NCBI GenBank assembly: GCA_034670405.1
Contig: JAXDDX010000044.1
Span: 3,312,001 to 3,376,000, forward strand
From: Hoplostethus atlanticus
Lineage: Eukaryota; Chordata; Actinopteri; Trachichthyiformes; Trachichthyidae
Length of the DNA stretch: 64,000 nucleotides
Direction: 5' to 3'
In this document: in pieces, positions 25,901-28,900 of the stretch
Position numbering within the stretch: the first letter of the stretch is position 1
Layout of the letters: each line of letters begins with the position of its first letter
Made by a program: the position numbers and the translations under genes
Notes under the pieces: model-generated
The model's database searches: none
Told to the model about the DNA's origin: nothing
Seen by the model: only the letters and a program-made list of their open reading frames with translations

Positions 25901-28900
25901 CTCTACGCTCCTCTCAATCTGTCCTGTCGCTTGCTCGGTTTCTGTCACTCTCCCACCCCTCTCTTCATATCTCTCCCACATTCACTCTTTTCTTTCTCTC
26001 CCTGGCTCTCTGCATTTCCCATTTCCTCTTCTCCTACGTCCTCGCCTTCCTCCTCTCCTCTCCCTCTCCCAGAGTCGTATACCAGGCACTGTCATTCCTC
26101 TGTGTGCAGCTCAGTGTGAGAGGATGTTCAACACCGCACGCACTCCTGGAGAGGAGACCGGTAATGAGACAGACATACACACACACACAGACACACACTG
26201 TGTCAACGTACTGTACACCTGAGTAACGTTTACTTGATAGAGTCTTCATTTTCTAATAGTGGCTCCACACCAGTATTAAACATCAACAACCAACCATAAA
26301 AGCCTTCGAGAAAACCAGCTTCAGTTGCTGACTCCATAGAGAATAATAGCTAGCGACACTGATGCACCACTGATTCAGAGAGATGATGAAAGTACCAGAC
26401 AGGCACACCGAAACTGCCTGAACCCTCTGAAGTACTAACGTAGAATAGAAAATTGTGTGACAGTTTGTGTACGTGTATGTGTGTGTGTATGGTCTCCTGA
26501 AGAAAGGCGTCTGTTATTCATTGAGTCATATCATGTCCACCATACAACCCATCCTGTCATCGCTCATCTGTCTCTTCCTGCCTTCGGGTCTCATCTCAGG
26601 TCTGTCTGGGTTGCTGTAAAGGATCTGTCTCTAGCTAACTTCTATTTTTTTTCTGTCCACACATTTTGTTTTCTCTTCTCTCCTTTACACCTGTTCTACT
26701 CTTCCCCTGCTCCTTTTCCATTTAATCCCAACAATCCCTTGTTGGGATTTAATCCTTTTTGTTTCCTCTCTTTCCCTCCCTGTTTTTATTTTATTTTACT
26801 TTACTGGTCCCTTTCTCTGTCGCTCAGTGGTTGTTGAGGTCTTCGGTTCCTTGCTGTTCCTATCAGTTTGAGCGGATGTTCGACTGTTGTCGAATCCCTG
26901 GAACGCTGACAGGTAGTATTTATATTTCCCCACGACTGGCCCAATCCTAATTTCAGATCTCCACATTAAAATCAATAAGATGTCAGTGGAAATTTGCTTA
27001 ACATTTTTTGCGCCATGCATTGCAATGCAAGGATTTAGAATTAGGATTGGACCCTTATGTCCCTGTCTTATATTTGTATTTCATGTCCCTCATGTTTATG
27101 AGCCAATGTCTTGATGGTGACCCTATCAATCATTTTCCATTATAAACCAGAATTATAAGGAGGCAAAAACAAATGTCACATGACTCAGAAATATATGACA
27201 CACTCATACACAGCTTCAGGTTGAATTTTTAAGGGACCACTAAAACGTTGACTGGCTTTAATAGACAGGCAGCATGTCAAGTGTTTGCGAATGGATTGGC
27301 CCTCAATCATTCAGCTTTGCTTTTGTTTTCTTTTGAAGATGATTTGCAAAGCCAAATCACACAGCCAACATCTGTCGCATGTCACTCCAGGTTACGTGCA
27401 CCCTTTCCAACATGGTGACAGCTGCCGCGTCTGCTGAACAGGGTGTGTCGGGGATATACCTGTACGCAAGCAAAGCCACATCTTAAATCCCCAGTGTGCA
27501 CATTAAATCTCAATCTGCTAAGACTCGCATAATTTAGTTAGGCCATAAGATTGTTCATCTATTATGAGATTCATATTTTTGTATAGGCTAGTGTTCAAAG
27601 CAAAAATGGAATTGACTCTCTATTTGAGATATTCACAGTCCATGCTAGTCTCATCATTAGTGATGTCAACACGATCCATCTTCAGTCTCAGGTCCCCCTC
27701 ACTTACCTTCTCCCCCAGTAGTTCAAACACCTTTTGCCTTTATTAATATATTTCACCTTTCTCTTTCTCCTTGCTTTTTTCCCTCTCTCTCTTATTTGTG
27801 AAGACACGGTGCAACATTGGCAGGACAGTGACTACGTGGTGGTGTATCATAGGGGGCGCTACTTTCGGCTGTGGGTGTACCAGGCAGGCAGACTCCTGTG
27901 CCCCAGGGAGATTGAATTCCAAATCCAGAGGATCTTGGACGACCCTTCGCCTCCTTCCACGGGAGAGGAGAAACTTGGGGCCCTGACTGCTGGAGACAGG
28001 TCAGTCTGACTAGCCACCATTGGTTAAATGAAGCTTTCAAATGGTCCATACATTGCATTGTATCCCTTATGTAATGTTATGTTCCTCTTATATATTTTCC
28101 CAGAATTCCATGGGCCAAGGCCAGGAAGGAGTACTTTAGCAGCGGGGTGAACAAGCGCTCTCTGGACTGCATTGAGAAAGCCGCCTTCTTTGTGAGCTTG
28201 GATGACGATGAGCACGGCATGATGGGAGAGGATCCAGCAGCTAGTCTAGATCGCTACGCCAAGTCCCTGCTACATGGAAAATGTTATGACAGGTAGTTTC
28301 ACTCTATCCCTGTCTTGTTAGAATGTAATTAAGCACCTAGTTGTTCTACTATTAAATGGAAATGTTTGAATTTTTCCTATATTGGTGCAGTGTTCGCCTA
28401 TCAGTTATTGACTTGGTTGTCACACAGGTGGTTTGACAAGTCCTTCTCAGTTGTGATATACAAGAACGGGAAGAATGGTATAAACGCAGAGCACTCATGG
28501 GCTGATGCACCAATCGTAGCACACTCATGGGAGGTAAGGGACATGAGAAGAGAGTAGTTCCTTCAATATTGCCATCTTTTGCTGATGGTAAGAGGCCAGT
28601 ACCATTGTTGTCTGTTTCCAGTATGTCCTGGCCACAGACAGTTTCCAGCTTGGTTACAATGAAGAGGGCCATTGTAAAGGAGATGTGGATTCATCTCTAC
28701 CACAACCACAGAAACTAAGCTGGGAAATTTCCCCAGAGGTTAGTTGATTCCTACATTTTCCTTCATTCCTCCATTCCTTCAACTAAAGGACGTGGGTTCT
28801 CGCCCCCATGTCAGCAGGCAGGGAGAGGGTACCTGGTGGTTGCACCTTTTTATACTTTTTTGCTTTTTTATACTTCGGGTGGACAGAAAAATGATGTTAA

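Follow-up and report, generated by a model that had tools for sequence, protein, structure and literature searches.

Two putatively mutually exclusive exons in a cpt1 gene of Hoplostethus atlanticus and their counterparts among its CPT1 paralogues

Two exons in one slot of the window cpt1 gene

The window, a 64,000-nt stretch of contig C44 (positions 3312001-3376000), comes from the 633-Mb genome of Hoplostethus atlanticus and carries a cpt1 gene on its plus strand. Translation starts at an ATG at 19912, and 17 coding exons were joined without a stop up to 30776; the joined model omits a last exon that was seen to start near 32356. The exons match PF00755 (carnitine acyltransferase), the motif AEHSW with the catalytic His lies at 469, and at the N-terminus the exons can be aligned with their counterparts in the three other CPT1 genes of this genome. 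Farther along, the window also contains a ferritin-like exon (PF00210, 55738-56184, minus strand) and a receptor-like gene with repeated fibronectin type III exons (61878-63886), one of them recognized by Pfam and the others by similarity.

The neighborhood of cpt1 bears on its identity. A C2-domain gene that looks like a synaptotagmin lies downstream, as does a gene (43682-44125, minus strand) with DUF4470, which we take to be a domain of DNAAF3. Passages of an earlier comparative study report that Dnaaf3 adjoins zebrafish Cpt1ca and that its human orthologue lies in the CPT1C locus, and they connect the Cpt1 genes with the genome duplications of vertebrates, and the two Cpt1c copies of teleosts with the teleost duplication (PMC4589379). 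Given this adjacency and the DUF4470 neighbor, the window gene is probably a cpt1c (cpt1a2) copy, and the paralogue on contig C158 probably its teleost duplicate.

Between two constant exons the gene holds two further exons, A and B, each entered in phase 0 and left in phase 1, bounded by AG and GT and free of stops (Table 1). A preliminary description of this DNA had proposed these exons with good splice sites and open frames, 667 nt apart and between boundaries at 24903 and 27804; its coordinates and spacing were all reproduced in the joined models, and the AG/GT sites and matching phases were seen as described. Over the 17 joined exons, the A form reads 740 codons and the B form 739, each without a stop. 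Together, the two exons shift the frame, as had been predicted, and run into a stop at codon 333, and a transcript with neither stops at codon 350. The earlier suggestion that the exons are related around ERMF and PG also survived scrutiny: 11 of 28 aligned residues are identical, a level reached by none of 20,000 residue-order shuffles, and the identity is centered on P-x-C-x-x-Q-x-ERMF and R-x-PG.

It is confirmed that two exons compete for one slot in the window cpt1, and the frame and anatomy suggest that they are mutually exclusive. Each transcript would carry one of the two, a choice enforced by the reading frame because inclusion of both or neither gives a frameshift and, well before the last exon, a stop. 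Transcripts with both exons or with none would be expected to be destroyed by nonsense-mediated decay.

Table 1. Positions in the window of the cpt1 coding region, the exon slot and the sequence elements around it
Feature	Position	Strand	Remarks
cpt1 coding region as joined	19912..30776	+	17 exons with A or B
Constant exon upstream of the slot	24796..24903	+	108 nt, ends in phase 0; 108 nt in 4/4 CPT1 genes
AG-free stretch 5' of the A acceptor	25853..26070	+	218 nt; longer in 1 of 59 other CPT1 acceptors (240)
Exon A (8a)	26073..26160	+	88 nt; 29 residues and a split codon; in the joined models
Intron separating A and B	26161..26827	+	667 nt; cpt1a-like counterpart 530 nt
AG-free stretch 5' of the B acceptor	26635..26825	+	191 nt; exceeded by 1 of 59 other CPT1 acceptors
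Hairpin in the pyrimidine-rich tract 5' of B	26720..26753	+	core 26724-26749; fold of 26690-26827 z = -3.70
Exon B (8b)	26828..26912	+	85 nt; 28 residues and a split codon; recovered by a profile without B, E 2e-8
Constant exon downstream of the slot	27804..27999	+	196 nt, entered in phase 1; 196 nt in 4/4 CPT1 genes

We considered whether exon B might be a spurious open stretch of intron, produced by chance or artefact, a reading for which only the lack of any observed transcript speaks and which we find scarcely credible. We scanned 43,920 intronic bases in the four CPT1 models for stretches open over 60-150 nt, in the right phase and flanked by splice sites that both score no lower than B's, and B was the sole candidate; with B's own score as the threshold, the scan is a measure of rarity rather than a blind test, and the B exon of the cpt1a-like gene described below falls under it owing to its donor. 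A profile built from the five other slot exons recovered window B at the E value given in Table 1, and the best non-exon match among 5,913 translated pieces reached E 0.14. Genome-wide, with the best candidates scored, the window B peptide found the six slot exons and nothing else, four of them at E <= 0.04 and the others at E 1.4 and 2.1, and the cpt1a-like B peptide found these six and one weak place at E 1.55. On the shuffles, the intron scan and the held-out profile we reject a chance open stretch, and the matching pair in a second gene speaks against it as well.

The slot in the four CPT1 genes of this genome

The genome holds 87 exon matches to PF00755, and the slot is present at four CPT1 loci: the window gene, the C158 paralogue (C158:953001-960500), and two genes on contig C1, at about 12.38 Mb and about 9.57 Mb, that we call cpt1a-like and cpt1b-like on a presumed resemblance to mammalian CPT1A and CPT1B. 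The sizes of the exons flanking the slot are identical in all four. The window gene is 82% identical to the C158 paralogue, and both are 62-66% identical to the other two.

The cpt1a-like gene (C1:12374001-12389700) carries a pair of its own, an A exon of 88 nt followed after 530 nt by a B exon of 85 nt, with the same order, phases, sizes and intron positions as in the window. Its joined forms, in a model that includes one doubtful 13-nt exon, read 760 codons with A and 759 with B and are free of stops; both exons together lead to a stop at codon 355, and none to a stop at codon 296. The two other genes have one slot exon each. In the C158 paralogue it is an A exon of 88 nt, followed by a 106-nt intron, and in the cpt1b-like gene it is 85 nt long and assigned to type B by its length and two diagnostic columns. 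Window A shares 27 of 29 residues with C158 A and 16 of 29 with cpt1a-like A. Thus, in this genome the pair is present in two of four CPT1 genes and a single exon in the other two. The preliminary description had proposed looking for an 8b-like exon of preserved phase in other teleost cpt1 introns, and such an exon was found within this same genome, in the cpt1a-like gene. Its view of homologous alternatives that are never both in frame stands, but the pair is probably no novelty of one gene, given the cpt1a-like pair and the single exons of the cpt1b-like and C158 genes.

No relic of B in the C158 slot or of A in the cpt1b-like slot was among the tblastn matches listed (E <= 1, best four per query), and a profile search found no relic exon in the slot regions and one weak C158 match, at E 0.14, in an early intron. 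Genes on contigs C16 (two genes), C374 and C50 were inspected as further CPT1 candidates and rejected for the absence of slot exons; they look like other carnitine or choline acyltransferases. The loci on C2, C6, C22 and C28 and another locus on C44 gave no slot match in the genome-wide peptide searches, in which the best candidates were scored, and one scan each of the viral_contigs and genome_contigs collections gave no match in other organisms.

Two further observations concern the wider family. The two genes on C16 (C16:2821001-2836000) are apparently very similar to each other and lie in opposite orientation. The second coding exon of the cpt1a-like gene, which encodes the first membrane segment, is divergent, with 44% identity to that of the window gene compared with 90% for C158; this region of CPT1 is tied to malonyl-CoA control.

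Age of the pair and constraint on exon B

The reading that we consider probable is that A and B are an old, tandem-duplicated, mutually exclusive pair in a teleost cpt1c, older than the split of CPT1A and CPT1C, with one exon chosen per transcript and with paralogues that each fixed one of the two. It builds on the anatomy, the frame logic and the paralogue pattern; a single origin is presumed, and the age would follow from paralogy. Since a related gene in the same fish has the same pair, the swap looks old rather than accidental, and since the cpt1b-like and C158 genes each hold only one exon in the slot, of 85 and 88 nt respectively, the pair appears to be ancestral and partitioned among the paralogues, the cpt1b-like gene having presumably fixed B and C158 A. 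If the window and cpt1a-like pairs go back to one event, that event predates the Cpt1a/Cpt1c split.

The argument for a single origin rests on arrangement and length. With the gap in the A/B alignment placed by best score, B is one residue shorter, and columns 10 and 13 hold L and A in all three A exons and in none of the three B exons. The exon trees do not single out one history. Window B stands alone on a long branch in both exon trees, the A|B split has a support of 60/71 on DNA, and in approximately unbiased (AU) tests a single B clade (p 0.43) and gene-wise clades (p 0.22 and 0.36) both escaped rejection. In DNA, the closest two exons from different genes are cpt1a-like A and the cpt1b-like exon, with 62 of 84 bases and 18 of 28 residues in common; cpt1a-like B and the cpt1b-like exon agree in 51 of 84 bases and 18 of 28 residues. 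Window B has 14 of 28 residues in common with cpt1a-like A, compared with 13-14 for the other B exons. Some of the comparisons thus run across A and B, so that the cpt1b-like exon is typed as B by its length and the two columns.

These comparisons also bear on a parallel origin, in which the cpt1a-like and cpt1c-like genes would each have duplicated the exon in an event of their own. The survival of gene-wise clades in the AU tests favors it, as does the fact that cpt1a-like A is as near to the cpt1b-like exon as cpt1a-like B is, or nearer. Yet it requires that one slot was duplicated twice, that the order came out alike both times, and that a one-codon difference in length, seen again in the cpt1b-like exon, also arose twice. 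Nor is either duplication young: synonymous divergence between A and B is large, with a dS of 1.29 in the window gene and a value beyond correction in the cpt1a-like gene, and in a comparison of 66 flank pairs the flanks of A were unlike those of B except where both pieces are the same stretch of intron. We judge a parallel origin distinctly unlikely.

Window B is the fastest-changing copy and its signs of constraint are mixed, so that it may be specialized or decaying. Against cpt1a-like B, synonymous sites are 0.86 different and non-synonymous sites 0.39; the values against the cpt1b-like exon (pS 0.50, pN 0.41) and against cpt1a-like A (pS 0.46, pN 0.40) each rest on about 20 synonymous sites. 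Of the 13 residues invariant across the other five slot exons, window B retains 11; the two lost ones are the N-T after ERMF, where window B has D-C-C and the five others have N-T-[A/T/S]. The alignment as a whole makes long-term coding use of window B likely, and a recent relaxation is possible.

An ancient pair of which window B is by now a fading, drifting relic, with a working pair kept in the cpt1a-like gene, would account for the long branch in both trees, the D-C-C replacement, the lowest identity of any exon to its own class and the near-equal pS and pN against two other exons, and would agree with the loss of B from the closest paralogue, C158. A relic, however, fits less well with a frame, a phase and two splice sites that are all intact, with an acceptor that ranks 40 of 59, and with the 11 retained residues; we regard it as unlikely, if well worth weighing. 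In sum, the pair is real and old, and it probably functions at the level of the family, with the cpt1a-like gene as its firmest case and window B as its shakiest copy.

Predicted consequences of the swap, splice choice and known exon pairs

The choice between A and B would swap about 29 residues that hold the P-C-Q-ERMF...R-PG block of the acyltransferase domain, a segment that presumably corresponds to about 288-317 in mammalian CPT1A. The slot motif P-x-C-x-x-Q-x-ERMF...R-x-PG aligns with PLCMNQY...RVPG of carnitine acetyltransferase and PLDMSQY...RIP of CPT2. A search of solved structures at E <= 0.001 matched 15 sequences, from CPT2, CRAT, ChAT and CROT, and CPT1 was absent among these 15. 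From the residue after ERMFN to the catalytic His there are 159 residues in the window, C158 and cpt1a-like genes and 158 in the cpt1b-like gene; taking the catalytic His as residue 473, we place the residue after ERMFN at Thr314. Thr314 is among the residues tied by mutagenesis to malonyl-CoA sensitivity, and a search of the open-access literature for 'Thr314' found no paper. This residue is T in five of the six slot exons and C in window B, from which an altered response of the B form to the inhibitor is predicted, or a loss of function if the exon is a relic. We would expect malonyl-CoA sensitivity or substrate affinity to distinguish the A form from the B form, and the two forms to be biased among tissues.

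For the choice itself, splice sites were ranked among 59 in the CPT1 models (59 being the best), of which about 3 of 59 donors and about 3 of 59 acceptors are doubtful owing to the 13-nt exon of the cpt1a-like model and a 17-nt boundary shift in the cpt1b-like one. Both donors of the window pair are weak (A 12, B 9). In the cpt1a-like gene, A combines the best donor of all (59) with a very weak acceptor (2), and B has a weak donor (6). Weak sites fit regulated exons and fall short of proving regulation. Simple crowding is unlikely to keep the exons apart, given A-B introns of 667 nt in the window and 530 nt in the cpt1a-like gene. The 191-nt AG-free stretch before window B hints at a distant branch point; long stretches of this kind are not common to both pairs, as those before the cpt1a-like A and B acceptors measure only 93 and 42 nt. 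The hairpin before B has an 11-bp core of which no other copy with up to two mismatches was found in the genome, which speaks against a copy of a repeat. A perfect 145-base TG repeat occupies 25594-25738 in the intron 5' of exon A, and is a possible length-variable modifier of splicing.

The 4a/4b exons of OGDH, another mitochondrial metabolic enzyme, resemble the cpt1 pair in having an AG-free zone before the downstream exon. According to passages of the OGDH study, the 4a/4b pair chooses regulatory properties of the enzyme, AG-free stretches go with distant branch points, and exclusivity depends on branch points that lie within 25-46 nt of the upstream donor (PMC7969005). In the window, by contrast, 474 nt separate the A donor from the start of the AG-free stretch before B, so that the steric rule of OGDH is not obviously applicable to cpt1.

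Within the gene family itself, the nearest likeness comes from insects, where each CPT1 transcript carries one of two alternative exons. In the Drosophila gene whd, Price et al. 2010 are said to have described a swapped region of about 21 residues in the substrate and malonyl-CoA region. Passages of a further study describe two Drosophila CPT1 isoforms that arise by alternative splicing and differ in kinetics and tissue bias (PMC7767417). Insects have one CPT1 gene, whereas this fish has four genes with the slot and the pair partitioned among them. Partition of tandem exon pairs after gene duplication is reported for FYN versus SRC/YES1/FGR/FRK, CACNA1F versus CACNA1S and PGM1 versus PGM5 (PMC9741552). 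In sets of the FYN/SRC type, as in CPT1, an ancient pair is kept in some paralogues and differing single exons in others; exon partition among paralogues is an established pattern to which CPT1 would add a case.

Other variation of CPT1 transcripts in vertebrates is of a different or unstated kind in published passages, which report an alternative 5' site at exon 7 of bovine CPT1B (PMC8116494), alternative 5' variants of grass carp CPT I and, in gobies, several CPT I cDNAs of unstated cause (PMC5713373), and CPT1A transcripts that differ in number between duck livers, with their kind not told (PMC9976415). CPT1 is absent from the main texts of PMC9741552, PMC5740500 and PMC4465641, which deal with human events. 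A vertebrate CPT1 exon pair is not described in the passages of PMC8116494, PMC10352773, PMC6070261, PMC5713373, PMC9013439, PMC9976415 and PMC4600267, and PMC3303723 has no matching terms. We found no report of such a pair in the open-access literature, and 'unreported' is provisional.

As the gatekeeper of mitochondrial fat oxidation, CPT1 sets its rate, and the difference in malonyl-CoA sensitivity between CPT1A and CPT1B is a classic problem. If 29 residues are naturally exchanged within a single gene, and one of the alternatives resembles the cpt1b exon, this would suggest that a compact determinant underlies the properties of the isoforms, and the pair would give the fish control of fat burning at the level of splicing. 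More speculatively, and on balance doubtfully, the A/B switch in CPT1 may predate the parting of insects and vertebrates; vertebrates would then have turned a splice choice into a gene choice (liver-type A, muscle-type B), and fish cpt1a and cpt1c would keep the original switch, possibly with a malonyl-CoA-insensitive form in cpt1c. If the switch is ancestral, one fish gene would make both a liver-like and a muscle-like enzyme. The pair could also link the insect and vertebrate routes of CPT1 diversification.
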